This document shows positions 39,687 to 59,166 of a stretch of 64,000 nt of DNA, one piece after another. The notes under the pieces were generated by a model. That model saw nothing but the letters and a program-made list of their open reading frames with translations, was not told the DNA's origin and ran no database searches. This stretch comes from Pseudonocardia benzenivorans CB1190. GTDB taxonomy: Bacteria; Actinomycetota; Actinomycetes; Mycobacteriales; Pseudonocardiaceae. Each line of letters starts with the position of its first letter. Positions within the stretch are counted from its first letter, which is position 1. The stretch is from the NCBI RefSeq assembly GCF_000196675.2, contig NC_015312.1, forward strand, positions 2,294,001-2,358,000, written 5' to 3'. The position numbers were made by a program, and so were the translations under genes.

Positions 39687-40603
39687 GTCTCGTACAGGTG
39701 ACCGAGGCCGACGGCGGGTCCGCCGGGCCGGCCTCGGTCGACGCCGAGGGTCGGGTCGACCGCCGGCGTCTCCGCCGGCGCACCATCGGTGTTGGTGGCT
39801 GGGTGGGGGCAGGTGTTCTGACCGGCGTGCTGGTGACCGCGCTGATCGGTCCGCTCACCGGCGGTGACCCACTTGCCCAGAACTTCGACGCGATCCTCGA
39901 GGCCCCCTCGGCGGCCCATCTGTTCGGAACCGACGAGCTCGGCCGCGACGTCTTCGTCCGGGTCGTCTTCGGCGGGCGGACGGCGCTCGCGATCACCGTG
40001 GTGTCCGCGGTCGTCGCGTCGCTGCTGGGACTCGTCCTCGCCCTGGCAGGCGCACTGTACGGCGGCTGGGTCGATGCGCTCACCAGCCGGCTCGCCGACG
40101 TCCAGCTGGCGGTCCCGTCGATCGTGCTCGCGATCGTCGTGCTGTCGTTCGTGGGGAACTCGTTCGTCCCGATCGTATTCGTCCTGGTCCTCGGGTCATG
40201 GGTGCTCACGTTCCGGGTCATCCGCGGGCACGCCCGCGCCGTCGTGCAACAGCAGTACGTCGAGGCGGCCCGGGTGGCCGGGGCCGGGCGGCTCGGGATC
40301 GCGCGCCGGCACCTGGTCCCCAGCGTCCTGCCGCTGCTCGCGGTGGCGTTCACCATCAATGCGTCCTCGGCACTCCTGCTCGAGTCGAGCCTCGGCTACC
40401 TCGGCCTCGGCGTCCAACCTCCCGACCCCGACTGGGGTCAGATGGTCGCCACCGGCCAGGCCCAGATCTTCACCGCGCCCTGGATCGCGCTCTTCCCCGG
40501 CCTGGCCGTCGTCGCGACGGCGGTCGGACTGCAGCTGCTCGGTGACGGACTGGCCGAACGGTTCGTGGGTGGACCCGTCACCCGGAGAGGACTCGCACGA
40601 TGA
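39683..40603 (+). CDS. ABC importer permease (DppC type)
   Basis: 306 aa. LFGTDELGRDVFVRVVFGGR, the DppC hallmark, is followed by several membrane helices. The EAA loop is YVEAARVAGAGRLGIARRHL, and the C-terminus has LGYLGLGVQPPDPDWG. The GTG overlaps the upstream stop, and the stop overlaps the ATPase start (ATGA), showing a tight operon. Confidence 0.9.
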   Translation: MSLVQVTEADGGSAGPASVDAEGRVDRRRLRRRTIGVGGWVGAGVLTGVLVTALIGPLTGGDPLAQNFDAILEAPSAAHLFGTDELGRDVFVRVVFGGRTALAITVVSAVVASLLGLVLALAGALYGGWVDALTSRLADVQLAVPSIVLAIVVLSFVGNSFVPIVFVLVLGSWVLTFRVIRGHARAVVQQQYVEAARVAGAGRLGIARRHLVPSVLPLLAVAFTINASSALLLESSLGYLGLGVQPPDPDWGQMVATGQAQIFTAPWIALFPGLAVVATAVGLQLLGDGLAERFVGGPVTRRGLAR

Positions 40604-42294: not shown

Positions 42295-42350
42295 ACCGAC
42301 CGGACGCCCCCACCCACTCCGACCCGCAGCAGAAGCAGACAGGGAAACCC

Positions 42351-43922
42351 GTGACCCACAGACCATCCGTCCGTCGCAGGCCCGCCGTCGTGGTCGCTCT
42401 CGCGATCGCGGCGGTGCTCGCGACCGTCCTCTCCGCCTGCGGTGGCGCGGCCGGCAGCGCCGACACACCGAAGGTCGGCGACGAGCTCCGGCTCGGGCTC
42501 TCCCGCCAGATCACCGGCATCAACCCGCACAAGGGCGGCTCGCCCGACTCCTCGGGCTCCATCGTCGGATCCATCTACGAGTCGCTCACCCGGATCGCCC
42601 CCGATCTCTCGGTCGAGCCGGGCCTCGCGACGGCATGGACCAGCACCGATCCGCTGACGTGGCGGTTCACCATCCGGACCGACTCGAAGTTCTCCGACGG
42701 GTCGCCGCTCACCGCCGACGACGTGGTGTGGAACTTCCAACAGCTGCTCAACCCCGACTACAAGGGCACCTCCGGGGCGCCGCTGCGCAAGTACCTGAAG
42801 TCGGTCACGAAGATCGACGACTCGACGCTGCAGTTCAACCTGTCCCAGCCCGCGCTCGACCTGCCGGGCCGGCTGTGGACGATCTTCATCGTGCAGCCGG
42901 TGTTCGCCCAGTCGCACAACCTCGACAACGAGGCGCTCGGCAGCGGCCCGTACAAGCTCGACAAGCTCGACCAGGAGAACGGCGCCACCCTGTCGCTGAA
43001 CACCTTCTACGCGGGGACGAAGCCGGCGTTCGCCCACGTCAAGTACACGGTGCTGGCCTCGGAGGCGCAGCGCGTCGCCGCGCTGCGGGCGGGGGAGCAG
43101 GACCTGATCCTCAACCTGGACCCGTTGGACCTCGCGCAGTTCAAGGACTCCGACACCTACGACACCATCCTCGGCGTCGGCACCCAGCCGCTGACGCTCG
43201 CGATCAACGAGCGCAAGACGGGCACTCCGCTGGCCGACCCCCGGGTCCGGCAGGCGCTGAACTACGCCACCGACAAGACCACGATCATCAACAGCCTGCT
43301 GCAGGGCGCGGTCCAGCCGCTGCCGGGCCAGGTCGTCTACGAGCCGTACCAGCCGCAGGACCCGTCGGTGCGCGCCTACCCCTACGACCCGGAGAAGGCC
43401 AAACAGCTGCTGGCCGAGGCGGGTCATGCCACCGGTCTGACGCTCACCGTCGCCCTTTCCAGCGGCACCTACGTCTCCCAGGACGCGGCGACCCAGGCGA
43501 TCGTCGCCCAGTGGGCGAAGGTCGGCGTCACCCTGAAGATCACGCAGCAGCCGTTCCCGGCCTGGCTGCAGAGCCAGTACGGGCCCGACGACGCGGCGGC
43601 CGACCTCTACTACATCATGTGGGGCGGCTCGTTCCGCGGTGACGTCACGGGCAACTTCGGCCCCTTCCGCAGTGACCACATCCAGAGCCACCTGCGCGCA
43701 CCGGAGTTCGACGAGCTGACGACGAAGGCCCAGAACGCCGCGACCGAGGCGGAGAAGACGACCTACGTCAACCAGGCCATCGAGAACGCCTACTCGCAGG
43801 CGCACGCGATCTTCCTCTACCCGTCGCCCTTCACCGGCGTCGTGTCCAAGGGACTGGAGTGGACGCCCAAGCCGAACCGCTACCTCTACGCCCAGCAGGT
43901 CGGCAGGGCGGCGCAGCCATAG
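42351..43922 (+). CDS. Extracellular solute-binding lipoprotein (SBP family 5)
   Basis: 523 aa. An N-terminal signal of VRRRP followed by a hydrophobic stretch ends in the lipobox LSAC (VLSACGG). The mature part shows the family-5 pattern IYESLTRIAPDLSVEPGLA, TWRFTIRTDSKFSDGSPLTADDVVW and VRQALNYATDK. It binds the substrate for the adjacent importer. GTG at 42351 is preferred for its AGGGA site; GTG at 42291, overlapping the ATPase stop, is possible. The cargo is probably a sulfur-containing organic compound, inferred from the neighbours. Confidence 0.88.
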   Translation: MTHRPSVRRRPAVVVALAIAAVLATVLSACGGAAGSADTPKVGDELRLGLSRQITGINPHKGGSPDSSGSIVGSIYESLTRIAPDLSVEPGLATAWTSTDPLTWRFTIRTDSKFSDGSPLTADDVVWNFQQLLNPDYKGTSGAPLRKYLKSVTKIDDSTLQFNLSQPALDLPGRLWTIFIVQPVFAQSHNLDNEALGSGPYKLDKLDQENGATLSLNTFYAGTKPAFAHVKYTVLASEAQRVAALRAGEQDLILNLDPLDLAQFKDSDTYDTILGVGTQPLTLAINERKTGTPLADPRVRQALNYATDKTTIINSLLQGAVQPLPGQVVYEPYQPQDPSVRAYPYDPEKAKQLLAEAGHATGLTLTVALSSGTYVSQDAATQAIVAQWAKVGVTLKITQQPFPAWLQSQYGPDDAAADLYYIMWGGSFRGDVTGNFGPFRSDHIQSHLRAPEFDELTTKAQNAATEAEKTTYVNQAIENAYSQAHAIFLYPSPFTGVVSKGLEWTPKPNRYLYAQQVGRAAQP

Positions 43923-43966: not shown

Positions 43967-45284
43967 ATGACCGAACGCCAACTGTTCCTCGGCGGCTACG
44001 TGCCGTTCCCGAGCGGCCACTACGCCGGCGCCTGGCGCCATCCCTACTCCACCCGCGACTGGCTGGGGCGCGACTTCCTGCACCAGACCGCCCGCACGCT
44101 CGAGGCCGCGAAGTTCGATCTCGCGTTCATACCCGAGACGGTGAGCCACAACCCGGACTTCACCCGGCACGGGCATTCCAACTCCATCAAGCACGACCCC
44201 GCCCAGGTGGCCGGGCAGATCGCCGCGGTCACCACGCACCTCGGCGTCGGCGTCACCCTGTCCACCAGCTTCAACGAGCCCTACAACCTGGCCAGGACGC
44301 TGCTCAGCCTTGATCACCTGTCGGGCGGGCGGGTCGCGTGGAACGTCATCCAGTCGCACGGCCCCGGCAACTACCTGAACTTCCCGCACGTCGAGGAGCT
44401 CTCCGGCGCCGAGCTCTACGACCGCGGCGACGAGTACGTCGAGGCGGTCCTCGCGCTGTGGCGGGCCTGGGAGGCCGACGCGCTCGTGCAGGACCAGGAG
44501 TCGGGGCTCTTCGCCGACCCGGCGAGGATCACCGTGCCCGATTACCGGGGCAAGTACCTCGCGGTTCGGGGCCCGCTGAACCTGCCTCCGAGCCCGCAGA
44601 CGCACCCGGTGATCATCCAGGCGGGCGACTCCCAGCGCGGGCGTACGTTCGGGGCTCGCTGGGGCGACGTGATCTTCGCGATCGAGCGGACCCGCGCCGA
44701 CATGCAGGCCAAGAAGGACGATCTCAAGGGCAAGGCCCGCGCTGCCGGGCGCGACGCCGACCGGATCCGCCTGTTCGCCGCGGTGCAACCCATCATCGGG
44801 GAGACGAAGGAGATCGCGCTGGCGCGGCGGGACTTCCTGCGGACCCGGATCACACCCGAGTCCGGCGTCCGGTTCTTCAGCCACTTCGCGCGGGTCGACC
44901 TCGCCGGGGTCGACCTCGACGCCCGCTACGTCGACGTCATCGAGGAGCGCGCGACCGACGGGCAGACGGAGAGCCGAGCGATCGTCCAACTCGACGAGCT
45001 GCTCGGCGCCCGTCGCGACCGGGTGACGATCGCGGAGGCGGGCGTCGAGTTCTCCACCAGCGAGCTGACCCCGCAGGTGGTCGGGACCGGTGAGGAGATC
45101 GCGGAGGAGCTCGCGGCGTACTTCACGTCGGGCGCCGCCGACGGGTTCCTGATCACGCCCACCCATTTCCCCGGGGTCGTTCGAGGAGTTCGGCCGCGCC
45201 GTCGTGCCGCACCTGCAGCGCCTCGGGGTGTTCCGCACCGAGTACACGGGCACCACACTGCGCGAGAACCTGGGGCTGGCATGA
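43967..45284 (+). CDS. NtaA/SnaA/DszA-type LLM monooxygenase (frameshifted near the end)
   Basis: FMNH2-dependent monooxygenase: [20 protein letters not shown], the family segment [44 protein letters not shown] and [16 protein letters not shown] are all present. At the CCCCGGGG run (45169-45176) the annotated frame leaves the family and runs on into the next gene. Removing one base gives [19 protein letters not shown], then [16 protein letters not shown] and a stop overlapping the next ATG. It is therefore a 1-bp insertion, either real or a sequencing error in the homopolymer run. Confidence 0.85.
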
Positions 45285-46084
45285 CGACGAGGACCGACAC
45301 CGACCTCGAGCTGACCAGCCGGTGGGGCGGCAGGCTCGCCGCCACGTTCACGCCCGGCACGGGCGACAGCGCGGTGCTGTTGCTGCACGGGTTCCTCTCC
45401 GACCGACGCGCCGGCGGCCGCTTCGACCGGCTCGCCGACGAGTACTCCGCGCTCGGGCACGCGGTGCTGCGCATCGACCTCAGCGGGTTCGGGTCCTCGG
45501 AGGGGGACGTCGTCGACGCCGACCGACTGCTCGACGACGCGCACACCGCACTCGACCACCTGGATGCGCTCGGGCTGACCCGCCAGATCCTGCACGGGCA
45601 GAGCCTCGGCTCGGCGATCGCGCTGCGGGTCGCCCCGCTGCGGCCGCGCGTCGCGACCCTCGTCCTGACCGGCGCCCTCACCGGCGCCGGCAACGGGGAC
45701 GCGCCTTACCCGTTCCTGGACGACGAGCAGCTCGCGGCCTGGTACCGCGACGAGGACGTGCGGCTACGCGTCGACGGTTCGCTCACGCGCACGCACGTCG
45801 TGGTCAACCGGCAACGCCCCAAGCTCGGCGCGACCGGTACCCAGGAGGAGCTGCTCGGGGCGGTGGGCGTCCCGGTGCTGGTGATCCACGGCGACACCGG
45901 CGACCAGGAGGAGGCCCTCGCCGCGGTCACGGCCGCGGGGGAGCACCTGCTGCCGGCGGGATCACGCGTCGTCGTGATCCCGGGGGCGACGCACACCTTC
46001 TACGAGAGCCAGGACGCCGTCGCCGCGCTCGTGACGGACTGGGTGTCGGAGCACGTGCCGGCCGCCGCACCGGGCTCGGCGTGA
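45281..46084 (+). CDS. Alpha/beta-hydrolase
   Basis: 267 aa. [29 protein letters not shown], the nucleophile elbow [10 protein letters not shown], the acid in [11 protein letters not shown] and the catalytic His in PGATHTFYE are seen. The ATG overlaps the true stop of the LLM gene (ATGA). It probably hydrolyses an ester or thioester formed by the monooxygenases. Confidence 0.82.
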
Positions 46085-46794: not shown

Positions 46795-46874
46795 GCGACT
46801 CCATCCCTCACACCCGAGGGGAGCCCGCGGCACCGCGCCGCTGTGGCACCCCGATGTTCCTCGAGGAGACCACA

Positions 46875-48101
46875 ATGCCTGCGCCGACATCGTCGCCCGG
46901 CCTCGACCACGCCATCCCGCCCACGGCGGCGCGGAAGGTCGAGTTCATCAGCCAGTCGCACCTCAACCCGTCGACGGAGCTGAACCCCGTCCCGACGCGC
47001 GGGATCGACCCGGCCTTCTTCCGCACCTACGTCCGGACCCTGGAGGAGGCGGGCTACGACTACACGTTGCTGCCCTACGGTTCCGGCGGTCCCGACTCGT
47101 TCGTCGCGGCGTCCGCGGTCGGGCAGCTCACCGAGCGGCTGCGCCCCATTGTCGCGGTCCGGCCCAACACGGCGTTCCCGCTCGTCGTCGCCCAGCAACT
47201 CGCCACCCTCGACCAGCTCACCGAGGGCCGGGCGGTCGTGCACCTCATCAGCGGCGGCAACGATGCCGAGCAGGCCCGGCAGGGCGACTACCTGCCCAAA
47301 CAGCGTCGCTACGCCCGCACGTCGGAGTTCGTCGACCTGTTGCGCAGGGCGTGGACGGAGCCGGCGGCGTTCAGTCACGAGGGCGAGTTCTACCGCTTCG
47401 ACGACTTCGGCCCCGGCCTGCGTCCTCACGGGGACACCATCCCGATCTCGATCGGGGGCCAGTCCGACGAGGCATTCGAGATCGGCGGTCGGCAGGCCGA
47501 CGTCTTCAGCTTCTGGGGTGAGCCCCTGGCCGACATCCGGGCTCAGATCGACCGGGTGCACGCCATCGCCGATGCTGCGGGCCGTCCCCGCCCGCGGATC
47601 TGGGTCACCTTCCGGCCGATCGTCGACCGCACCGACGAACTGGCCTGGCGCAAGGCGTACGACTATGCCGAGCGCATCGGCCGGACCTTCCGCGAGGGCA
47701 CCTATGGCCTGCGCTCGCTGACCGGCTCCGGCACCCCGCAGAACGTCGGCTCGCAGCGGGCCCTGCACTTCGCAGCAGGCGCGGACGTGTACGACCGTGC
47801 ACTGTGGACCCGCACGGCCGCCGCGACGAACGCCGGCGGGGCCTCGACGGCGCTCGTCGGTACGCCGGAGACGGTCGCCGCGGCGATCCTCGACTACATC
47901 GACCTCGGTGCGGACCTGGTCTCGATCCGCGGCTACGACAACCTGGCCGACGCCAGGGACTACGGCACGCACGTCATCCCGCTCGTCCGTCAGGAGCTGG
48001 CGCATCGCGAGGCGACCGGACAGCGCGGCAGCCTGCAGGTCGAGCACCAGGGTGCGCTCGCTCCCGGGTTCGACGCCGACGCCCTGGCCGGTGTCCGGTG
48101 A
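46875..48101 (+). CDS. LLM monooxygenase (SsuD-like), cluster 2
   Basis: 408 aa alkanesulfonate-monooxygenase-type flavoprotein. VEFISQSHLN, YDYTLLPYGSGGPDSFV, IVAVRPNTAFPLVVAQQLATL, VHLISGGNDAEQARQGDYL, YRFDDFGPGL and SFWGEPLADI are seen; RPRIWVTFRPIV is typical of the SsuD group, which releases sulfite from organosulfonates using FMNH2. The ATG at 46875 follows GAGGAGA. It overlaps the DszC-like gene by GTGA. Confidence 0.88.
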   Translation: MPAPTSSPGLDHAIPPTAARKVEFISQSHLNPSTELNPVPTRGIDPAFFRTYVRTLEEAGYDYTLLPYGSGGPDSFVAASAVGQLTERLRPIVAVRPNTAFPLVVAQQLATLDQLTEGRAVVHLISGGNDAEQARQGDYLPKQRRYARTSEFVDLLRRAWTEPAAFSHEGEFYRFDDFGPGLRPHGDTIPISIGGQSDEAFEIGGRQADVFSFWGEPLADIRAQIDRVHAIADAAGRPRPRIWVTFRPIVDRTDELAWRKAYDYAERIGRTFREGTYGLRSLTGSGTPQNVGSQRALHFAAGADVYDRALWTRTAAATNAGGASTALVGTPETVAAAILDYIDLGADLVSIRGYDNLADARDYGTHVIPLVRQELAHREATGQRGSLQVEHQGALAPGFDADALAGVR

Positions 48102-49306
48102 CGGCGTCCACGTCGGTCGCGCCCCTGACCCTCCCGACGCCGGACCTGTCCGACGAGAGCCTCGCCGAGGTCACCGCCGAGGTCGCCGCCACCGCGGCGG
48201 AGTACGACCGCAGCGCCGCGATCCCCACCCGCGGGATCGAGGTGGCGCACCGGGCGGGCCTGCTCACGGCGACCGTCGCCGAACGCGACGGAGGGCCCGG
48301 CGCGTCCCCGCTCGACGTCGCGCGAATCCTCGTCGCGCTCGGCGAGGGCGACCCGTCGGTCGCACTGCTCGCCGCGAACACCCTCGCCATCCACGGCGCT
48401 CACGCCGCCACCGGGCACTGGCCTGCCGCCGCCTACGCGGACCTGTTGCGGCGCAGCGCAGACGGTCCTGCCCTCGTCAACGCGATCCGGGCGGAGCCGG
48501 AGCTGGGCGCGCCCGCCCGGGGCGGTCTGCCCGCCACCGTCGCCCGCCGCACCGCCGACGGCTGGTCGCTGTCCGGGCGCAAGGCCTACGCGACCGGCGG
48601 CACGGCGCTGGCCTACCACGTCGTCTGGGCCGTGGCGGACGAGCCGCACGGTGACCCGGACCGGCCACGCGTCGGGCACGTCGTCGTGCCTGGCGAGGCA
48701 GCCGGGATCACGTGGGTCGACACGTGGGACCACCTCGGGCTGCGCGCGTCGAACACCCACGACGTCGTCTACGACGACGTACGCGTCCCGGTCGACGCCT
48801 TCATCGAGCTCCCACGCGTCGACGGCGTCTACCGCGACCTCGCGTCCGCGACCAGCCCGACGAGCTTCGGCTACCCCGCCCTGTACGTCGGTGTCGCCCG
48901 CGCGGCCCGGGCGGCGTTCGTCCGGTTCGCCCGCGACCGCGTCCCGACGGCGCTCGGCACGCCGATCGCGCAGACCGAGCGCATCCAGGCGGTCGCCGGG
49001 GAGATCGACGCCCAGATCGCGCAGGCCGAGGCGCTGCTCTACGGGACGCTCCTGCGGATCGAGGCCGGCGACACCCGGCACCTTCCCCAGCTGTCCCTGC
49101 TGAAGGTGCAGATCGGCCGCTCGGCCGTCGCCGCCGTCCAGACGGCGGTCGCCGCGCTCGGCAACCCGGCGCTGAGCCGGCACCTGCCCTTCGAACGGCA
49201 TCTGCGCGACGTGCTGTGCGTGCGGGTCCATCCGCCGCAGGAGGACGCCGCGCTGCTCGCTGCCGGTCGCCGGCTGCTCGTCCCGACCACAGGGGGTACC
49301 TCATGA
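48098..49306 (+). CDS. Acyl-CoA-dehydrogenase-like flavin monooxygenase (DszC/SfnB type)
   Basis: 402 aa. The fold is acyl-CoA dehydrogenase: LVALGEGDPSVALLAANTLAIH, WSLSGRKAYATGGTALAYHV, TWDHLGLRASNTHDVVYDDV, and an alpha-helical C-terminal domain. Members near sulfur genes oxidise sulfur atoms or sulfones with reduced flavin (DszC, SfnB). It overlaps genes on both sides (GTGA, ATGA), so it is translationally coupled with two LLM proteins. Confidence 0.82.
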   Translation: MTASTSVAPLTLPTPDLSDESLAEVTAEVAATAAEYDRSAAIPTRGIEVAHRAGLLTATVAERDGGPGASPLDVARILVALGEGDPSVALLAANTLAIHGAHAATGHWPAAAYADLLRRSADGPALVNAIRAEPELGAPARGGLPATVARRTADGWSLSGRKAYATGGTALAYHVVWAVADEPHGDPDRPRVGHVVVPGEAAGITWVDTWDHLGLRASNTHDVVYDDVRVPVDAFIELPRVDGVYRDLASATSPTSFGYPALYVGVARAARAAFVRFARDRVPTALGTPIAQTERIQAVAGEIDAQIAQAEALLYGTLLRIEAGDTRHLPQLSLLKVQIGRSAVAAVQTAVAALGNPALSRHLPFERHLRDVLCVRVHPPQEDAALLAAGRRLLVPTTGGTS

Positions 49307-50382
49307 CCGCGACGGCCGTCGAGCTGCCGGAGCAGCGTGTGACGACACGGCTCGGGTTCAACACCCGCGTCTCCTGGACCGACGACGCCGGGCCGGGGCC
49401 GGGCCTGCGCGACGGCATCGCGCTCTACCGGGCCGCGGAGGCCCTCGGGTACCAGTCCGCCTGGGCCTACCAACGTCACTTCGACCACTACCTGTCCTCA
49501 CCGCTGCCGTTCTTCGCCGCGGTCGGGCAGCACACCGAGCGGATCGCGCTCGGCTCCGCGGTGATCCCCATGCGGTACCAGGACCCGATCCTGCTGGCCG
49601 AGGCGGCCGGCACCACGGACCTGCTCGTCGGCGGACGCCTCGAGCTCGCGCTGGCCACCGGGAGCCTCGCCGGCTGGGACCCGATCTTCGGGGGTGTCTC
49701 CACCGATGCGCGGACCGAGGCCCGGCGCCGGCTCGAGCGGTTCCTCGCAGCCGTCGACGGAGAGACCCTGCACGTCGTCGACGGTCCGGGGCAGGGCGCT
49801 CCCGTCGGGACGCCCATCCGGGTCACCCCGCACAGCCCGGGCCTGCGTGGGCGGCTCCGACACGGTGCGGCGAGCGCCGGGTCGGCGTCGGAGGCCGCGC
49901 GGCTCGGGCTCGGGCTGATCGTCGGCACCGTGCTGCGCGGGCTCGAACCGGGGGAGAGCTTCCCGCAGTACCAGGCCAGGGTGATCGAGACCTACCGCAC
50001 GACGTGGCGGGCCGAGCGCGGCACCGAACCGCCCCCCGTCGCCGTCGCGGCGTCGATCCTGCCCGGCACCACGGCGGCGCTGCGGGAGACCTACGCTGCC
50101 TACGACCTGCAGCGGCGCACCGAGGGTATGGCGGCATCGCGCCCGCGGGGCGCCCTTGAGCCGGTGATCTCGGCCGACCTGCCCGACGGGATGTCGATCA
50201 GCCCGGTCCATCACGGTGACCCCGACAGCGTCGCCGCCGCGGTGCTCGCCGATCCGGGCCTGGCCGCCGCCGACGAGATCGTGCTCTTCCTGCCGCCGGC
50301 GTTCGGCCTGGATGCCAACGTCCGGCTGATCACCGACCTGGCCCGCGAGGTCGCCCCGGCGCTCGGCTGGGCACCTGGCTGA
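49303..50382 (+). CDS. LLM class flavin-dependent oxidoreductase
   Basis: 359 aa luciferase-like protein. GYQSAWAYQRHFDHYLSS, IALGSAVIPMRYQDPILLAE and LLVGGRLELALATGS are seen, and a GAASAGSASEAARLG helix leads to the C-terminal half. It is more distant from SsuD than its neighbours. The ATG overlaps the DszC-like stop. It is the last gene of this + strand run; the molybdoenzyme gene is convergent, 10 bp away. Confidence 0.8.
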   Translation: MTATAVELPEQRVTTRLGFNTRVSWTDDAGPGPGLRDGIALYRAAEALGYQSAWAYQRHFDHYLSSPLPFFAAVGQHTERIALGSAVIPMRYQDPILLAEAAGTTDLLVGGRLELALATGSLAGWDPIFGGVSTDARTEARRRLERFLAAVDGETLHVVDGPGQGAPVGTPIRVTPHSPGLRGRLRHGAASAGSASEAARLGLGLIVGTVLRGLEPGESFPQYQARVIETYRTTWRAERGTEPPPVAVAASILPGTTAALRETYAAYDLQRRTEGMAASRPRGALEPVISADLPDGMSISPVHHGDPDSVAAAVLADPGLAAADEIVLFLPPAFGLDANVRLITDLAREVAPALGWAPG

Positions 50383-50392
50383 ACCCGGTACG

Positions 50393-52651
50393 TCAGACGG
50401 GAGGCTCGTGCGCGCGGACCGGCGGCACGGGCCCCTCGTGCCGTGCGAGCTGCACCGTCGTGTGCTGGCCGGTGCACCCCTGGGCCAGCGACGACGTGCC
50501 GCGGTCACGGGTCAGGACGTTCGGGTTGCCGTGCACGCAGAACGGGTGCTCGGCGGCGGGGTCGAGCGGAGCGAACCACGCGCCCGTCGGTAGCTGCACG
50601 ACGCCCTCGCGGACGCCGTCGGTGACCGCGGCGGCGGCGAGGCAGGCGCCCCGGTCGTTGAACAGCGTCACGACGTCGCCGTCGGCGATGCCCCGGGCGG
50701 CCGCGTCGGCAGGGTGGATCCGCGCCACCTCCCGACCGTTCACCTTGTGCGCCAGGCTGTGTGCCCCGAAGTCGAGCTGCGAGTGCAGCCGGGTCGAGGG
50801 CTGGTTGGCCACCAGCCACAGCGGGTGCCGCGGGTCGGGGACCTCGGTGGGCGCCAGCCAAACCGGGTGGCCGGGAGCGTCCGCGTACCCGAAAGCGGCC
50901 ACGGTCTCGGAGAACAGCTCGATCCGGCCCGACGGTGTCGGCAGCGGGTGGCCGACCGGGTCCGCCCGGAAGGCCCCGATGATCCCGCCGCGGTCCTCGA
51001 CCTGCGGCAGCTCCAGCTCACCCGCGGCCCAGAACTCGTCGAACGACGGCGCGGGCAGGCCCTCGTCGGCCAGCCCCTTCGCGATCCTCGCGTAGAGCCA
51101 CTCCAACCAGGCGCGTGCGTCGCGGCCCTCGGTGAACGCGGGTCCCGCACCCAGCCGTTCGGCGAGCGCGGCGAAGATCGCGTAGTCGTCGCGGGCCTCA
51201 CCGGGCGGGTCCACGAGCCGGTGCATCGCGGTCATGACCGGGTCGAACGCGCTCGCCCCGATGTCGTCGCGCTCGATCGTCCACGTCGCCGGGAGCACGA
51301 CGTCGGCGTGCCGGGCGGTCGCCGTCCAGACCGGCTCGTGCACGACGAAGGTGTCGAGCCGCCGGACGGCTCGGCTTAGCCGTCCCAGGTCCTGGTGGTG
51401 GTGGAACGGGTTGCCACCCACCCAGTAGGCGAACCGCACGTGCGGGTACGTCGAGCGTCGCCCGTCCACGTCGTAGGGCTTGCCCGGGTGCAGCAGCATG
51501 TCCGCGACCCGCGCGACCGGGATCGAGAGGTCGATCCTGTTGCGGCCCTGCGGCACCGCGGCGATCGGCACGGCCACCCGGGTGCGCCCGTAGTGCCCGA
51601 TGGAGCCCAGGCCGTAGCAGAATCCGCCGCCGGGCAGGCCGATCTGGCCGAGTGCGGCGGCCAGCGCCACCGCGGCCCATACCGGCTGTTCGCCGAACTC
51701 GGCGCGCTGCAACGACTGCGCGACGGTGACGAGGGTGCGCCCGCCCGCAGCGCGTCGGGCCAGCTCCCGGATCTCCCCGGCCGGCACCCCCGTGATCGCA
51801 GCAGCCCACCCGGCGTCCTTGTCCCACAGGTACTCCGCCAGCGAGTCCCAGCCCACGCTGTACCGCGCCAGGAAGTCGCGATCGTGCAGGTCCTCGGTGA
51901 CCAGGGTGTGCAGCAGCCCGAGGATCAGCGCGGTGTCCGACCCGGGTGGTACCGACAACCAGCGGGCGCCGATCCCGTCGGGCAGGTCGGAGCGCAGCGG
52001 CCCGATGTTGACGAAGACGGCACCGCGACGCGCGGCCGCGGTCATCGCCGCGCGTTCGACGTGCGCGCTGATCCCGCCGGCACCGACCGCACTGTTCTTC
52101 AGGTTCATCCCGCCGAACGCGAGGACCGTGTCGGTGTGCGTGGCGACCTGGTCCCAGGTCACCGTCCCCTTCGACACCAGCTCCGACGGCCCGAGCACGT
52201 GCCGCAGCACGACCTGGGCGGCCGCCCCGCTGTAGTCACCGACCGAGCGCACGTACCCGCCGACGGCCAGGTTCAGGAAGCGGTGCACCTGGCTCTGGGC
52301 GTGGTGGAATCGGCCGGCGCTGGCCCAGCCGTAGCTGCCGCCGTAGACCCCCTCCGGGCCGTGGGCGTCGCGGACCCGGGCGAGCTCGCCCGCCAGCCGG
52401 TCGAGCACCTCGTCCCAGCCGACCTCGACGAACCCGTCCCGGCCGCGCCGGTCGTCGGGACCCGGGCCGTCCTCCCACCAGCCCCGGCGGACCGTGGGAC
52501 GGCGAACCCGGGCGGCATGGTCGACGGCCGCAGGCACGTTGCGCAGCAACGGGGACGGCTCGGGATCGGCCGCGCGGGGCGTGACCCGGAGCCCGGCGGC
52601 GGTGACCTCACCGAGGAACGAGCCCCAGTGCGTGCTGTGCGGCTGGGGCAT
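50393..52651 (-). CDS. Molybdopterin S/N-oxide reductase (BisC/DMSO-reductase type)
   Basis: 752 aa. No N-terminal Cys motif for an Fe-S cluster and no twin-arginine signal, so it is a cytoplasmic single-cofactor enzyme. VYGGSYGWASAGRFHHAQSQ holds the Mo-ligating Ser position of the DMSO/TMAO/biotin-sulfoxide reductase family. The C-terminal dinucleotide domain has NQPSTRLHSQLDFG, VNGREVARIHPADAAARG and GCTGQHTTVQ. It would reduce a sulfoxide such as methionine, biotin or DMS sulfoxide. Its ATG overlaps the stop of leader peptide 3 as TGATG. Confidence 0.88.
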   Translation of the reverse strand: MPQPHSTHWGSFLGEVTAAGLRVTPRAADPEPSPLLRNVPAAVDHAARVRRPTVRRGWWEDGPGPDDRRGRDGFVEVGWDEVLDRLAGELARVRDAHGPEGVYGGSYGWASAGRFHHAQSQVHRFLNLAVGGYVRSVGDYSGAAAQVVLRHVLGPSELVSKGTVTWDQVATHTDTVLAFGGMNLKNSAVGAGGISAHVERAAMTAAARRGAVFVNIGPLRSDLPDGIGARWLSVPPGSDTALILGLLHTLVTEDLHDRDFLARYSVGWDSLAEYLWDKDAGWAAAITGVPAGEIRELARRAAGGRTLVTVAQSLQRAEFGEQPVWAAVALAAALGQIGLPGGGFCYGLGSIGHYGRTRVAVPIAAVPQGRNRIDLSIPVARVADMLLHPGKPYDVDGRRSTYPHVRFAYWVGGNPFHHHQDLGRLSRAVRRLDTFVVHEPVWTATARHADVVLPATWTIERDDIGASAFDPVMTAMHRLVDPPGEARDDYAIFAALAERLGAGPAFTEGRDARAWLEWLYARIAKGLADEGLPAPSFDEFWAAGELELPQVEDRGGIIGAFRADPVGHPLPTPSGRIELFSETVAAFGYADAPGHPVWLAPTEVPDPRHPLWLVANQPSTRLHSQLDFGAHSLAHKVNGREVARIHPADAAARGIADGDVVTLFNDRGACLAAAAVTDGVREGVVQLPTGAWFAPLDPAAEHPFCVHGNPNVLTRDRGTSSLAQGCTGQHTTVQLARHEGPVPPVRAHEPPV

Positions 52652-52843: not shown

Positions 52844-53707
52844 TCAGGCCGGGACCAGAATCGTGCCCAGTACCCGGGCCGCGGCGTCGCGCAGGCGCGG
52901 GTCCGAGCCTGGCTTCGCACGCAGGTGCAGCGGCTCCGGCCGTACCGGGGGGAGGTCGTCGCGCCGTTCGAGGCCTTCCGGGACGCCGCCCGAACCGGCC
53001 AGGAGGACGACTCCGAGACCGGCGCGCGCGGCGTTGAGCACCCCGGCGAGATAGGCGGCCTCGCCGACCACCGTCGCTGACAACGCGTTGTCGGCCAATG
53101 TCTCCAGGGCGCGTCGCCGGATGGTGCACGGGCTGTCGATCACGAGGAGCGGGATGGGCGACCCCGGTGGGGGCCTGCGCCAGCCCGGAGCCGCATACCA
53201 GGTGAGTGGCAGGGAGCCCGCCGACACGCTGTCGGACCCCCGCACGTCGCCGATGTACATCGCGAGGTCGAGCGTGCCGCGCTCGATGGCGTCGTTGAGC
53301 CGGTCGCTGCGGTCGAGCCGGAAGCGGACCGCGGAGTCGGGGAAGACCTCGCTCACCGCGCCCGACACGAGACCGAGCAGCTCGTCGGCCGCGTGCTCGG
53401 TCGTCCCCAGCACGATCGACGCGCGCGTGTCGCCGACCCCGATGCGGCGCAACGCCTCGTCGTGCGCCGCGATGATCCGTCGGGCCTCACCGACGAGAGC
53501 CTCACCCTCCGGGGTGAACCGGCTGTGGCGGCCGACGCGCTCGACCAGCGGCCGGCCGACGGCCTTCTGCAGGCGTCGGACGTGCTGGCTGACCGCCGGT
53601 TGGGACAGGACGAGGTGCTCGGCGGCACGGTGGAAGCCCCCGCAGTCGGCCACGGCCACGAGGCTGCGCAGCGCGACGATGTCGAGAACGACGGTGGGGA
53701 CGGCCAT
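52844..53707 (-). CDS. LysR-family transcriptional regulator
   Basis: 287 aa. N-terminal winged helix: LRSLVAVADCGGFHRAAEHLVLSQPAVSQHVRRLQKAVG (HTH within AAEHLVLSQPAVSQHVRRL), then an effector domain with DLAMYIGDV and LAGVLNAARAGLGVVLLAG. It lies between two copies of the shared promoter element, one driving the molybdoenzyme and one driving the hydrolase/fusion operon. It is the likely local regulator, sensing sulfate, cysteine precursors or the organosulfur compound. Confidence 0.85.
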   Translation of the reverse strand: MAVPTVVLDIVALRSLVAVADCGGFHRAAEHLVLSQPAVSQHVRRLQKAVGRPLVERVGRHSRFTPEGEALVGEARRIIAAHDEALRRIGVGDTRASIVLGTTEHAADELLGLVSGAVSEVFPDSAVRFRLDRSDRLNDAIERGTLDLAMYIGDVRGSDSVSAGSLPLTWYAAPGWRRPPPGSPIPLLVIDSPCTIRRRALETLADNALSATVVGEAAYLAGVLNAARAGLGVVLLAGSGGVPEGLERRDDLPPVRPEPLHLRAKPGSDPRLRDAAARVLGTILVPA

Positions 53708-53979: not shown

Positions 53980-54124
53980 CCGCCTGACCGGCCTGCGCGC
54001 GACCTTCCTCCCGACGTACGCCGACCGGCGCGCGTCCGTTCCCGTTCTCCCACCACGGGCGACCGTCGTGCCGCGCCGCCGCGCGTGCCGTGGTGGTCCG
54101 ACCTGTCGAAAGAGGTTGATCCAA

Positions 54125-54889
54125 GTGACTGTCGCCGGAGCAGTACCGGTCGTCGCGTCGTGGCGCGAGCCCGACGGCATCGCGCCCCGCGGGACCGTCG
54201 TCGTGGTTCCCGGCCGCGGCGAGCACGCCGGAGTGTACGAGCGTTTCGGCCGTCGGGTCGCGGCCGACGGGTACCGGGTCTGGGCCGTCTCGGACCCGAC
54301 CTTCGACGAGGAGCGGTCGACCGGGCAGATCCAGGCCCTGCTCGCAGCCGACCCATCGGGTGAGGTCGGGCCGCACCCTCGGGTACTGGTCGGCTCGGAC
54401 TCGGGGGCGCTCTACGCCGCCGGTCTCGTCGCGGCAGGCGGCATCGGGACCGGTGTCGACGGAGTTGTTCTCGTCGGACTGCCGTCCCGTGACGACCCGC
54501 CGCTGGCCGTGAGCTGGGACGACGAGTTGGCGGCGCGGACCTCCTGCCCGGCGCACCAGGGCCGCCTCCGCAACGACGACGCCGTGCGCCGTGGGGCGCT
54601 CGCCGGGCGGGTCCCCGGCTCCTGGTTCGAACGGGCACAGAGCTCCTCGATCACGGTGCCCGTCCTGGGTCTGCACGGCGAGGCCGACGCGGTGAGCCCG
54701 TTCGCCGCCGCCGCGTCCTGGTACGCCGGGACGCCCACGGCCGAGCTGGTCGGGATCGCCGGCGGCCGCCACGACGTGCTCAACGACCAGACCCACCGCA
54801 CCGCCGCGGCCACCGTGGTGCTGTTCCTCGAACGGCTGCGGCTCGGTACCGACGCGCCGGCGATCGCCCGCGGGGTGACGCTGCGATGA
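54125..54889 (+). CDS. Alpha/beta-hydrolase
   Basis: 254 aa. VVVPGRGEHAGVYERFGRRV, VLVGSDSGALYAAGLV (nucleophile elbow G-S-D-S-G), VLGLHGEADAVSPF with the catalytic acid and GGRHDVLND with His form a complete triad. The GTG at 54125 follows AAAGAGG. It overlaps the next gene by ATGA. It resembles monoacylglycerol-lipase-like hydrolases. Confidence 0.82.
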   Translation: MTVAGAVPVVASWREPDGIAPRGTVVVVPGRGEHAGVYERFGRRVAADGYRVWAVSDPTFDEERSTGQIQALLAADPSGEVGPHPRVLVGSDSGALYAAGLVAAGGIGTGVDGVVLVGLPSRDDPPLAVSWDDELAARTSCPAHQGRLRNDDAVRRGALAGRVPGSWFERAQSSSITVPVLGLHGEADAVSPFAAAASWYAGTPTAELVGIAGGRHDVLNDQTHRTAAATVVLFLERLRLGTDAPAIARGVTLR

Positions 54890-56745
54890 CCGCATCCGTG
54901 GGGACCGCTGCGGCAGAGCGTCGCTACGTCGTGATCGGCGCCGGCGCGGTCGGTGCGACCCTGGCCGCCGAACTCCACACCGCCGGCATCGCGACCGTGC
55001 TCGTGGCGCGCGGGGCGCACCTCGATGCGCTGCGCGCGGGCGGGCTGCGCTACCTGCGCCCGGACGGCGAGCACGTCGTCGACGTCCCGGTCGCGGCTGG
55101 TCCGGCAGAGGTCGACCTGCGCGCCGGTGACGTCCTCGTGCTGGCCACCAAGGCGCAGGACGCCGAGTCGACGATCGCCGACTGGGCGTGGCGTCCGGTC
55201 AAGGGCGGGCTGTCGGCGGCCGAGTCGCTGCCGGTCCTCGTGCTGCAGAACGGCCTGGACACCGAGCTGGTGGCGTTGCGCCGCTTCGCCACCGTCTACG
55301 GCGCCGCCGTCTGGTCGCCCTCGACCTACCTCGTGCCCGGTGAGGTCGAGTCGCCCGCGGCGCCGGCCGTCGGGATCGTGTGGGTCGGCAGGTTCCCGGG
55401 AGGCCACGACGCCCGCCTCGCCCCGATCGCGGACGACCTGCGCGCGGCGCGGCACCTGGTCGAGGTCGTCGAGGACATCCCGCGGTGGAAGGCCGGGAAG
55501 TTGCTCGGGATCGTCGTCAACGCCCTGGACGCGCTGTACCGCCCGAGCCCGCTGCGCGACCGGGTCGCCGCGGCGCTGAGCGCCGAGGCGCGGGAGGTCT
55601 ACGCCGCGGCCGGGCGGCTCGCCGCCGATCTCCCCGCCGACACGACGCTGGACCTGTCGCAGTTCGTCAGCCGTCCCATCCCGGGCCGCCCGCCGGCAGG
55701 CCGCTCGACGTGGCAGAGCCTGCAGCGTGGCGCCTCGCTCGAGTCCGACTTCCTCAATGGCGAGATCGTGCTGCTCGCACGCCTGCATGGCGTCGACGCC
55801 CCGCACAACGCCGCCGCGCTCGCGCGCATCCGGCGCGCCGAACGGGAGGGCACCACGGCCGGCTCCCTCGGCGACGACGACCTGCGCGCGACCTTCCCGC
55901 GCCTCGACGTCCTCGTCGACGCCGCGGCGCTGGCCGCCGAGCTGGCGGGCCCACGCCCGCCCGTGCTCCTCGACGTCCGGTGGGCACTCGGCGACCCCCA
56001 CGGTCGCGAGCACCACCGCGACGGGCACCTCCCCGGAGCGGTCTACGTCGACCTCGACACCGAGCTCGCCGCACCCGTCGGGGACCCGCTCGCGGGCCGT
56101 CACCCGTTGCCGGACATCGCGGACCTGCAGGACGCTGGTCGCCGCTGGGGGGTGAGCACAGGCCGGCCGGTCGTCGCCTACGACGCCACGGGCGGGCTCG
56201 CCGCCGGTCGTGCGTGGTGGCTGCTGCGCTGGGCCGGGCTGACCGACGTCCGGCTCCTCGACGGTGGGCTGGGGGCGTGGGTCGCCGCCGGGCTGCCCGT
56301 CGAGACCGGCGCCGTGCCCGAGCCCGGCACCGGCGATGTCGAGCTGAGCCCCGGCCACCTGCCCGTCCTCGACGCCGACGGCGCCGCCGACCTCGCCCGC
56401 AGCGGGCTGCTCCTGGACGCCCGCGCCGCCGAGCGCTACCGCGGCGAGACCGAGCCGATCGACCTGCGCGCCGGGCACGTCCCCGGCGCGGTCAGCGCCC
56501 CCACCGGCGACAACCTCGCACCCGACGGCCGGTTCCGCCCGGCCGCGGAACTGCGGGCACGGGTCGCGGAGCTGGGGGAGGGGCCGGTCGGCGTCTACTG
56601 CGGGTCCGGTGTCACCGCCGCCCACGAGATCGCCGCACTGGCGGCCGCAGGCATCCCGGCAGCGCTGTTCCCCGGCTCCTGGTCGGCATGGTCGTCCGAC
56701 CCGGCACGACCCGTCGCGGTGGGCCCCGATCCGGACGGGAGCTGA
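54886..56745 (+). CDS. Fused ketopantoate-reductase-like / rhodanese (SseA-like) protein
   Basis: 619 aa. Residues 1-335 or so form an ApbA/PanE-type domain: VVIGAGAVGATLAAELH (NADP loop), LVLQNGLDTELV and WKAGKLLGIVVNALDAL with the catalytic Lys. Residues from about 345 to the end are two rhodanese domains. The first is inactive, with VAYDATGG where the Cys should be. The second carries the catalytic Cys572 in VYCGSGVTAAHE. SseA-like proteins transfer sulfane sulfur or act on thiosulfate and mercaptopyruvate. The fusion in one frame, with no stop or start between, is unusual. It suggests a sulfur-linked 2-oxo-acid reduction, which is speculative. Confidence 0.85.
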   Translation: MTASVGTAAAERRYVVIGAGAVGATLAAELHTAGIATVLVARGAHLDALRAGGLRYLRPDGEHVVDVPVAAGPAEVDLRAGDVLVLATKAQDAESTIADWAWRPVKGGLSAAESLPVLVLQNGLDTELVALRRFATVYGAAVWSPSTYLVPGEVESPAAPAVGIVWVGRFPGGHDARLAPIADDLRAARHLVEVVEDIPRWKAGKLLGIVVNALDALYRPSPLRDRVAAALSAEAREVYAAAGRLAADLPADTTLDLSQFVSRPIPGRPPAGRSTWQSLQRGASLESDFLNGEIVLLARLHGVDAPHNAAALARIRRAEREGTTAGSLGDDDLRATFPRLDVLVDAAALAAELAGPRPPVLLDVRWALGDPHGREHHRDGHLPGAVYVDLDTELAAPVGDPLAGRHPLPDIADLQDAGRRWGVSTGRPVVAYDATGGLAAGRAWWLLRWAGLTDVRLLDGGLGAWVAAGLPVETGAVPEPGTGDVELSPGHLPVLDADGAADLARSGLLLDARAAERYRGETEPIDLRAGHVPGAVSAPTGDNLAPDGRFRPAAELRARVAELGEGPVGVYCGSGVTAAHEIAALAAAGIPAALFPGSWSAWSSDPARPVAVGPDPDGS

Positions 56746-56746
56746 C

Positions 56747-57835
56747 GTGGCCGTCGAGTTCATCAGCGCCGTCCACACGACGCCGACCACCGAGGCCACC
56801 CCCGGCGGTCGCCGCCGCGGGTCCTTCGATCCCGAGTACACCCGCCGGTTCGTGCGCGCCCTCGACGACGGCGGCTTCGACTGGACCCTCGTGGCATACG
56901 GCTCGTCGTCGGTCGACGCGAACCAACTCGCCCAGTTCGTGCTCAACCACTCCGAGCGGATCGCGCCCATGGTGGCGCACCGGCCCGGTTTCGTCGCGCC
57001 GACCCAGGCCGCCAAGGTCTTCGCCACCCTGGACCGGATCGGCGGCGGGCGGATGGGCGTGCACATCATCTCCGGCGGCGACGACCAGGAGCAGCGACGC
57101 GAGGGCGACTACCTCGACAAGTCCGAGCGGTACGCCCGCTCCGAGGAGTTCGTCCGGATCCTGCGGCAGATCTGGGAGTCCGAGGGGCAGCCCGTCAGCC
57201 ACGAGGGCCGGTACTACCGCTTCGAGGACTTCGCCACCGACATCCTGCCCGTGCAGGACGCGCTGCCGATCTCGGTCGGCGGCTCGTCCGAGCACGCCTA
57301 CCGGATCGGCGGGCAGCTGGGCGACATCTTCGGGCTGTGGGGCGAGCCGCTCGCCGAGACCGCCCAGCAGATCGCCGCGGTCAACGCCCACGCCGACGCC
57401 GCCGGCCGGCCGCACCCGCGCATCTGGGTGTCGTTCCGGCCGATCGTCGCGGCCACCGACGAGCTGGCCTGGGAGAAGGCCCACGACGTCCTGGGGGCGG
57501 TGCGCGCCAACGGGTCCGTCAACGGGTGGCGGCCGCCGAACGTCGGGTCGCAGCGGCTGCGGGCCGTGGCCGCCCGCGGCGACCGGCACGACCGGGCGCT
57601 CTGGACCCCGCTCGTCGAGGCCACGGCGCAGCCGGGCAGCACCACCGCCCTCGTCGGCAGCTACGAGACCGTCGCGAAGGCGCTCCTGGACTACGTCGAC
57701 ATCGGCTGCGAGCTGCTGTCCATCCGTGGCTGGGACCCGCTCACCGACGCGATCGACTACGCCCGGCACATCGTGCCGTTGGTGCGCCAGGAGCTGGCGC
57801 ACCGGGACGCGGGCAGCGTGCAGGAGATCGCGTGA
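56747..57835 (+). CDS. LLM monooxygenase (SsuD-like), cluster 2
   Basis: 362 aa. VEFISAVHTTP, FDWTLVAYGSSSVDANQ, IAPMVAHRPGFVAPTQAAK, VHIISGGDDQEQRREGDYL, YRFEDFATDILP and LWGEPLAET are seen; RPHPRIWVSFRPIV is shared with the SsuD-like protein at 46875. The GTG is 1 bp past the fusion-gene stop, and its own stop overlaps the GlcD-like start (GTGA). Confidence 0.88.
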   Translation: MAVEFISAVHTTPTTEATPGGRRRGSFDPEYTRRFVRALDDGGFDWTLVAYGSSSVDANQLAQFVLNHSERIAPMVAHRPGFVAPTQAAKVFATLDRIGGGRMGVHIISGGDDQEQRREGDYLDKSERYARSEEFVRILRQIWESEGQPVSHEGRYYRFEDFATDILPVQDALPISVGGSSEHAYRIGGQLGDIFGLWGEPLAETAQQIAAVNAHADAAGRPHPRIWVSFRPIVAATDELAWEKAHDVLGAVRANGSVNGWRPPNVGSQRLRAVAARGDRHDRALWTPLVEATAQPGSTTALVGSYETVAKALLDYVDIGCELLSIRGWDPLTDAIDYARHIVPLVRQELAHRDAGSVQEIA

Positions 57836-59166
57836 CGTCGCTGCTGCCCGCGGGATGGGCCACCGACCCGGCCGTCCTCGATGCCCGCCGGCTCGACCGG
57901 TCCGGGTTCGATCCCGGCGGACGCCCGCGCGCGGTCGTGTTCGCGGAGTCGGCTGACGAGGTCGCCGAGGTGCTGCGGATCGCGAACGCCGACGGGACAC
58001 CGGTCGTCACGCGTGGCGCGGGGACCGGCCTGTCGGGCGGGGCGGTCGCGACCGACGGTTCGATCGTCCTCGACCTGTCCCGGATGAGCCGGATCGTCGA
58101 GATCTCCGCGACCGACGAGCTCGCGGTGGTCGAACCCGGCGTGATCACGTCGGACCTCGACCGGGCCGCCGGCCGCTACGGGCTGCGCTACGCCCCCGAC
58201 CCGGCCAGCGTCGCGATCTCCACCATCGGCGGCAACATCGCCACGAACGCCGGCGGGCTGCGCTGCGCCAAGTACGGCGTCACCCGGGACTCGGTCCTCG
58301 GCCTCGACGTCGTGCTCGCCGACGGCAGGCGGGTCGGCACGGGTAGGCGCACCGTGAAGGGCGTCGCCGGGTACGACCTGACGGCGCTGTTCGTCGGCTC
58401 CGAGGGGACACTCGGGGTGATCGTGGGCGCGACCGTGAGGCTGCGCCCTGCTCCGGTGCGGACCGCGACCCTGGCCGCGTTCTTCCCCGACTTCGTCGCG
58501 GCGACCACCGCGGCGGCCGCCGTCACCGCGGCACGGCTGCAGCCCGCGATCGCCGAGCTGCTCGACCGGGTGTGCCTCGACGCGATCGACGACGCCGACG
58601 GCACTGCACTCCGGGCGCGGGGTGCGGCGTTCCTCCTCGTGCAGACCGACGGGCCGGGAGCTGACGTCGAGATGGACGCGGTCCGTGCCGTCGTCGAGCC
58701 GCTGTCCGGCGACGTCGAGGTCACCACCGACCCGGTGCGTGCCGAGGCGCTGCTGGCGACCCGGCGGGCGGCGCTGCCCGCACTGGAACGCCACGGCCGC
58801 GTCCTGATCGAGGACGTGGCGGTGCCTCGCTCCCGGATGGCCGACGCGGTGGCCGCGATCGAGAAGATCGGCGTCCGTTCCGGAATCCGGATCGCCACGA
58901 TGGCCCACGCCGGGGACGGCAACCTCCACCCGATCCTGGTCCTCGACCACGGCCGCGCGTTCGACGAGGACGTCTGGACGGCCGCCGGCGAGGTCTTCAC
59001 GGCCGCGCTCGACCTCGGCGGCACCCTCACCGGCGAGCACGGGGTCGGGCTGCTCAAACGCCGGTGGCTCGTCGACGAGCTCGGACCCGACGTCGTCGAC
59101 CTGCAGCGCGAGCTCAAGGCGGTTTTCGACCCGAACGCGATCCTCAACCCCGGAAAGAAGGTCTGA
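57832..59166 (+). CDS. FAD-linked oxidase (GlcD-like)
   Basis: 444 aa. PCMH-type FAD domain: VTRGAGTGLSGGAVATDGSIV, PDPASVAISTIGGNIATNAGGL and FVGSEGTLGVI, then the C-terminal domain with the signature HAGDGNLHPILV and TGEHGVGLLK. It oxidises a 2-hydroxy acid such as glycolate, lactate or a sulfolactate-like compound. In this cluster it could process the carbon skeleton left after desulfonation (inference). Confidence 0.88.
   Translation: MTSLLPAGWATDPAVLDARRLDRSGFDPGGRPRAVVFAESADEVAEVLRIANADGTPVVTRGAGTGLSGGAVATDGSIVLDLSRMSRIVEISATDELAVVEPGVITSDLDRAAGRYGLRYAPDPASVAISTIGGNIATNAGGLRCAKYGVTRDSVLGLDVVLADGRRVGTGRRTVKGVAGYDLTALFVGSEGTLGVIVGATVRLRPAPVRTATLAAFFPDFVAATTAAAAVTAARLQPAIAELLDRVCLDAIDDADGTALRARGAAFLLVQTDGPGADVEMDAVRAVVEPLSGDVEVTTDPVRAEALLATRRAALPALERHGRVLIEDVAVPRSRMADAVAAIEKIGVRSGIRIATMAHAGDGNLHPILVLDHGRAFDEDVWTAAGEVFTAALDLGGTLTGEHGVGLLKRRWLVDELGPDVVDLQRELKAVFDPNAILNPGKKV

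Follow-up and report, generated by a model that had tools for sequence, protein, structure and literature searches.

A ketopantoate reductase-family domain joined to a tandem rhodanese in a single frame of a probable actinomycete organosulfur operon

Here we describe a gene that joins a ketopantoate reductase (KPR)-family domain to a tandem rhodanese (RHD) in one frame, in a 64,000-nucleotide stretch of the genome of the soil actinomycete Pseudonocardia benzenivorans CB1190 (NC_015312.1, positions 2,294,001 to 2,358,000; the window). Our analysis of sequences and predicted structure indicates that the fusion is real, conserved and probably a functional bifunctional enzyme of an organosulfur operon. 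The 619-residue open reading frame is single and has zero internal stops. At a GC content of 75-79% an open frame alone is weak evidence. A sequencing or assembly artefact, a stop between the domains or a decaying gene is nevertheless ruled out, and vanishingly improbable in our judgement, by 30 distinct fused loci across many assemblies and by low ratios of nonsynonymous to synonymous substitution (dN/dS) in both halves alike. Against five congeners the KPR half gives ratios of 0.08-0.40 and the RHD half 0.12-0.22, indicating that purifying selection is acting on both; the linker gives 0.25-0.80, a noisy value from 20 codons that carries little weight. The original prediction, made from the letters of the window, had the domains joined without a stop, and both this frame and the many full-length single-frame homologues bear it out.

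The N-terminal half matches PF02558 at residues 15-157 (68 bits) and PF08546 at 220-317 (39.2 bits) and the C-terminal half matches PF00581 in two stretches, the best at 348-467, all above the gathering scores. In an AlphaFold2 model built from 23 sequences (mean pLDDT 86, pTM 0.75; low confidence at 1-9, 516-527 and 614-619) residues 12-325 align to the solved KPR 5ayv with a Z score of 32.5 and a root-mean-square deviation of 2.7 over 288 residues. Residues 333-619 align to 5wqk, a mouse/human-type 3-mercaptopyruvate sulfurtransferase (MST), with values of 32.1 and 2.9 over 276 residues. Structural neighbours on the KPR side include the D-mandelate dehydrogenase branch of that family. The ApbA/PanE-type NADP domain originally proposed is thus supported by Pfam and fold, but its span of about 1-335 is not: the KPR fold covers 12-325 and is followed by a linker of about 20 residues, with the rhodanese starting near 340. 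An SseA-like tandem rhodanese with Cys572 in the last domain had also been proposed, and Pfam, fold and the CGSGVTA loop agree with it.

Both active sites look competent from their conserved residues. On the KPR side every one of the 30 fused loci has R42 and N122; for K205, S274 and E286 the count is 29, the remaining locus having a gap in each case. Alignment to the KPR structure 5hws assigned K205, N122, S274 and E286, which we take to be the counterparts of E. coli PanE K176, N98, S244 and E256. On the rhodanese side D363, H381, S574 and C572 are found in 30/30, and the first repeat carries Asp433 where a Cys is expected. We take a CGSGVT loop with an Asp-His-Ser triad to be the MST-type signature and CRKGVT that of classical thiosulfate sulfurtransferases, an assignment we rejected since the loop reads CGSGVTA. 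Human MST presumably binds its substrate through R188 and R197; in the alignment to 3olh R517 fits the first of these arginines, the second position is Ile or Val in all 30 fused loci with R528 close by, and residues 516-527 are modelled at pLDDT <50. Neither half can be filed as a bona fide PanE or SseA, because both curated NCBIfam cut-offs are missed (TIGR00745, 112 bits against 141.35; NF008557, 118.2 bits against 250). The fusion resembles the KPR family (PanE/ApbA; T. kodakarensis 5ayv/5hws; D-mandelate dehydrogenase 5x20) in its whole fold (Z 32.5 and 30.9), NADP motif and N122/K205/S274/E286, and differs in its score, in the attached rhodanese, in its organosulfur operon and in an Ile for Asn after the catalytic Lys. 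Likewise it shares with MST (human 3olh, E. coli SseA 1urh) the tandem rhodanese fold (Z 30.3 and 27.9), the CGSGVT loop, the triad and a candidate for the first substrate arginine, and differs in its score (118 bits against the SseA cut-off), in an Ile/Val at the second arginine and in its N-terminal KPR domain.

The fusion is not confined to this strain. A first search of relatives found full-length fusions in 8 of 199 genomes, its own genome counted: 6/62 of the genus, 2/57 others of the family and none in 80 genomes from other families of the order. In a class-wide draw of 394 genomes 17 matched at E 1e-140 or better, namely its own genome and 16 of one family, for one of which coverage was limited to residues 12-512. 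Among the best 80 loci kept out of 483 relatives in a set of named genomes, at least 25 (L047-L069, L071, L077) carry the single-frame fusion, in Pseudonocardia, Frankia, Parafrankia, Pseudofrankia, Amycolatopsis, Actinoplanes, Paractinoplanes, Symbioplanes, Actinocorallia and two metagenome-assembled genomes. Two of these fusions (L068, L077) bear insertions, and a further metagenome-assembled locus (L072) looks like a frameshifted fusion. The 30 loci compared are these 25, the window and four loci from our other genomes; L028, L030 and L033 were left out as repeats of L047, L048 and L053. Genes were called with a GC-frame script that placed no centre gene in 11 loci, including L083, where a tblastn match spans residues 13-613. 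The original prediction knew of no standard pathway joining these domains, and counted an architecture that proved common and already characterised as evidence against it. The architecture is widespread in actinomycetes; in the literature searched (open-licence PMC papers) we found no description of a KPR-rhodanese fusion, which agrees with the former statement, nor any characterisation.

The two halves also occur apart. KPR and RHD are separate genes with a 4-bp overlap in three genomes of another family (L034-L036), adjacent genes in Kineosporia (L070) and members of one cluster in Rhodococcus jostii (L090) and in two further genomes (L041, L042). In one congener, G042, the RHD is joined instead to an alpha/beta hydrolase in one 531-residue frame (L038, 9243-10838), and another importer locus, at a distance of about 150 kb, contains the KPR (L037). 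A starred branch of our tree places this KPR within the fused Pseudonocardia KPRs, which points to fission. Thirteen Streptomyces-type loci, one of them from 'Actinobacteria bacterium OK074', combine LysR, hydrolase, a lone RHD, a Tau/Ssu-type importer and SsuD-like and DszC-like genes, with GlcD in 12 of the 13. Stand-alone rhodaneses in other genomes of the Pseudonocardiaceae and the order (L135-L139) sit in a conserved non-sulfur neighbourhood and are 60-65% identical in L135-L138; in L139 the gene caller placed none. Loci with fused genes and loci with separate ones are intermingled in the KPR and RHD trees alike, which were made by a quick method, contain long branches and score L072 as separate. 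Parsimony requires at least 6 changes for KPR and at least 11 for RHD; starred branches force 2 and 3 of these respectively, as changes in which gain and loss are not distinguishable.

The fusion lies in an island of predicted organosulfur genes (38796-59501). Besides an importer, this contains monooxygenases of NtaA, SsuD and LLM type, a flavoprotein resembling DszC/SfnB, BisC, LysR, a hydrolase, the fusion, and SsuD-like and GlcD-like genes (Table 1). The 4-bp overlap of hydrolase and fused gene recurs in 10 of 11 loci checked (in L040 with a lone RHD), and L059 has a 26-bp gap. We scored GlcD, SsuD, DszC and alpha/beta hydrolase within 10 kb as context markers; the counts vary with the thresholds set for identity and coverage and with the length of the contig. 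Two or more markers accompany 17 of the 30 fused loci and one marker a further 4, with SsuD-like monooxygenases the commonest operon partners. In the controls two or more occur at 0/8 stand-alone KPR loci and at 16/54 stand-alone RHD loci (none at 38); loci with separate KPR and RHD reach 4/8. The contig of L058 spans 3.9 kb, and its partial GlcD falls under the coverage limit; L037 is scored as having none, yet a Dpp-type importer and a gene resembling NtaA lie next to it.

Table 1. Coordinates of the fusion gene, its parts and the neighbouring island genes within the window
Feature	Position	Strand	Basis or remark
Dpp/nickel-type ABC importer (two permeases, double ATPase, binding protein)	38796..43922	+	
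NtaA/DmoA-family FMN monooxygenase + alpha/beta hydrolase in one frame	43967..46084	+	TIGR03860 364.8 bits (cut-off 279.7)
SsuD-like monooxygenase	46854..48101	+	TIGR03565 167.4 bits
DszC/SfnB-like acyl-CoA-dehydrogenase-fold protein	48098..49306	+	
Second LLM monooxygenase	49303..50382	+	weakly like TIGR04027 (100 vs 413 bits)
BisC-family molybdopterin S/N-oxide reductase	50393..52651	-	TIGR00509 864 bits (cut-off 1017.55)
Divergent LysR-type regulator	52844..53707	-	
Alpha/beta hydrolase (frame open from 54068)	54116..54889	+	4-bp overlap (ATGA) with the start of the fusion
KPR-rhodanese fusion gene, 619 aa	54886..56745	+	open reading frame, Pfam, predicted model, dN/dS
KPR-family domain, residues 12-325 (GAGAVG dinucleotide motif; R42/N122/K205/S274/E286)	54919..55860	+	fold, PF02558/PF08546, conservation
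Linker, residues 322-341	55849..55908	+	alignment; least constrained part of gene
Tandem rhodanese, residues 342-613	55909..56724	+	Pfam, structure match, conservation
Cys572 codon, CGSGVTA loop	56599..56601	+	C572 in 30/30 fused loci
SsuD-like luciferase-family monooxygenase	56747..57835	+	PF00296; TIGR03565 170.9 bits
GlcD-like FAD-linked 2-hydroxyacid dehydrogenase/oxidase	57832..59166	+	PF01565 + PF02913; TIGR00387 376.6 bits (cut-off 567.9)
Class II aldolase, truncated, 110 aa	59169..59501	+	sister genome G022 (L027) has an intact copy of 253 aa

Related clusters were found outside the phylum. In a plasmid collection, among the best 20 of 196 matching records that were listed, KPR relatives occur in Alphaproteobacteria, and the 4 records covering at least 80% of the query are all from K. 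vulgare (Ketogulonicigenium), with KPR and RHD as separate genes. The order there is importer - KPR - LLM - sulfurtransferase (41% and 33% identical). R. etli, Rhizobium sp. T1473 and Pararhizobium sp. A13 share the order BisC - importer - LLM - SsuD-like - DszC-like - KPR, in which the LLM is 68% and the KPR 47-50% identical to those of the window and an RHD was undetected in the stretch examined. The identity of about 68% between the LLM gene at 49303-50382 and these Rhizobiaceae plasmid genes, in a like-ordered cluster, suggests gene transfer between phyla. On the Agrobacterium tumefaciens plasmid pAt, where KPR and RHD are again separate genes of one cluster, the order is KPR - TetR - isomerase - SseA - FAD-binding protein - molybdopterin oxidoreductase - importer, the RHD being 32% and the GlcD 36% identical to ours. 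In A. larrymoorei a KPR lies 1.6 kb upstream of an importer/SsuD/DszC/msuE set, with an RHD undetected. The sulfur operon, the split versions and these cross-phylum clusters form the decisive context, which lay outside the original prediction.

We consider it very likely that the fusion is an enzyme of an organosulfur-scavenging operon. As a whole the best explanation, to which we give a probability of roughly 0.4, would be a bifunctional operon enzyme whose active sites meet at a small thio-2-oxo acid. An organosulfur operon together with folds for 2-oxo/2-hydroxy acid redox beside sulfane-sulfur transfer makes such an acid the simplest shared chemical. That the two domains share a pool of 2-oxo (thio)acids is a tentative proposal, and that the shared compound would be mercaptopyruvate/mercaptolactate in particular is doubtful. 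In the proposed scheme the importer would bring in organosulfur compounds that the monooxygenases cleave, and part of the sulfur would pass via a C3 (or homologous) thio-hydroxy or thio-oxo acid such as 3-mercaptolactate or 3-mercaptopyruvate. Quinone-linked GlcD and the NADP-linked KPR domain would interconvert the (R)-2-hydroxy and 2-oxo forms; the rhodanese would move the sulfur from the 2-oxo form to Cys572, forming a persulfide, and pass it on to a thiol, thioredoxin or sulfite. Joining the domains would confine an intermediate that is reactive and toxic. The coupling of a mercaptopyruvate-like 2-oxo acid to sulfur transfer, as first suggested for this gene, is compatible with the MST-type loop and triad, the KPR residues and the predicted operon. 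A precedent comes from humans: MST competes there with lactate dehydrogenase for mercaptopyruvate, so that both activities do meet at this node, and in people lacking MST lactate dehydrogenase diverts it to mercaptolactate (PMC7504796). Sulfur-limitation expression data from three bacterial studies, compared by annotation, point the same way: Rhodococcus IGTS8 grown on dibenzothiophene up-regulates a 'PanG' ketopantoate reductase (PMC8557817), Gordonia alkanivorans raises an sseA 2.9-fold (PMC11852219), and in Gordonia NB4-1Y three organosulfur sources each increase four sulfurtransferases (PMC7661421).

Several observations weigh against this best explanation. In the IGTS8 data two rhodanese-annotated proteins went down on dibenzothiophene, not up (PMC8557817), and GlcD and KPR acting on one hydroxy acid would be partly redundant. 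Four residues past the catalytic K205, 20 of the 30 fused loci have Asn and the window protein has Ile. Where MST has its second substrate arginine, all 30 carry Ile (11) or Val (19), and the region around this site (516-527, pLDDT <50) is the worst-modelled stretch of the rhodanese. Six of the 30 fused loci lack any marker gene and three, from Amycolatopsis, have BisC only; the three overlapping KPR-RHD pairs of L034-L036 adjoin an MFS gene without sulfur markers. No KPR was found in the fetched stretch of the 13 Streptomyces-type RHD loci and no RHD within about 21 kb of the KPR in three Rhizobiaceae loci (L141, L144, L145). Operons with either one alone therefore occur, and KPR and RHD are not obligate partners.

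Other readings can accommodate part of this evidence. The rhodanese might combine its persulfide with SsuD-released sulfite to give thiosulfate for cysteine synthesis while the KPR separately reduces a 2-oxo acid or like carbonyl left by C-S cleavage, the two sharing an operon and no intermediate. This is in accordance with SsuD-like monooxygenases as the commonest partners, with the 13 RHD-only operons and with the role of SsuD/TauD as established sulfite releasers, restated in one study (PMC11852219). It still requires a persulfide donor, however, the CGSGVT loop is of MST type rather than of the classical thiosulfate:cyanide type, and the repeated joining of KPR and RHD is left unexplained; we regard it as rather unlikely. 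Similarly improbable, in our view, is a fusion that merely co-expresses two enzymes of one regulon without functional coupling; on this view the 4-bp overlap of the genes in operons would be what lets them fuse and split again and again. The interspersed states in both trees, the alternative RHD-hydrolase join of G042 with its distant KPR and the linker as the least constrained part of the gene favour such co-expression, but the same two partners have been joined repeatedly in the same order, and they are paired outside the sulfur operon too (L034-L036, L070). Finally, the KPR half could be a true ketopantoate reductase for pantothenate and coenzyme A (CoA), with the rhodanese meeting a CoA-linked or cofactor-related demand for sulfur when sulfur is limiting. 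The KPR fold and catalytic residues fit this, and the IGTS8 authors placed an induced KPR under CoA biosynthesis (PMC8557817). The score below the PanE cut-off speaks against it, as do other KPR-family genes in the same genome, one of them in a non-sulfur neighbourhood common to four Pseudonocardia-group genomes (L127-L130), and no pan gene was recognised next to the fusion; we consider a role in CoA supply very unlikely.

The fusion and its operon can also be set beside other known systems. CoA-disulfide/persulfide reductase-rhodanese fusions likewise join a redox enzyme to a rhodanese, by analogy: they have an FAD disulfide reductase fold and a single rhodanese, and to our knowledge their redox part is not homologous to KPR. 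Comparison with one of them, 8a56, gave a chance short match only (E 0.092). With the ssu/sfn/seu sulfonate-sulfone operons the window operon shares an importer, an SsuD-like FMN monooxygenase and a DszC/SfnB-like flavoprotein, and differs by adding KPR, rhodanese, GlcD, an Asp-nucleophile hydrolase and BisC. Moreover all its SsuD/SfnB-like members score under the curated cut-off; both SsuD-like genes were rejected as alkanesulfonate (ssu) SsuD at 170.9 and 167.4 bits against the TIGR03565 cut-off of 518.2.

Further observations concern the rest of the window. The hydrolase at 54116-54889 has an Asp (GSDxGA) at the nucleophile position in 38/38 aligned rows, some being one contig repeated, and an invariant Cys144; we take such an Asp nucleophile to be as in haloalkane dehalogenases and epoxide hydrolases. 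The 705-residue frame at 43967-46084 is a second possible fusion of the island and could be a fusion or a frameshift; its parts are separate genes with a 4-bp overlap in L027 and L031. Scans gave 0 promoter-like signals and 1 terminator-like signal against 0.9 expected, nothing above shuffled sequence. Downstream lie an MRF GTPase (ribosome hibernation factor-recruiting; 59856-61208; 500.8 bits, above the NCBIfam cut-off of 375) and a transposase-like frame at 61614-62459. Three blocks around 8-33 kb are duplicated at 99.4-99.8% identity, two inverted and one direct (8739-10215/31364-32845, 18898-19995/25141-26237 and 14981-15796/28340-29154).

In two phyla the joined and co-operonic forms connect sulfur scavenging with an enzyme family known for 'vitamin B5', and many automatic PanE/PanG labels may therefore be wrong. 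We speculate, as an unlikely but consequential possibility, that actinomycetes and Rhizobiaceae share an undescribed branch of organosulfur assimilation in which a 2-hydroxyacid dehydrogenase and an MST-type transferase obtain sulfur from a thio-2-oxo acid as sulfane sulfur, and not as sulfite alone. The fusion offers a single protein for a direct test of such a sulfane-sulfur route. If the branch were real, many genes labelled PanE/PanG in sulfur-limited bacteria would be thio-2-oxo-acid reductases rather than vitamin B5 enzymes.

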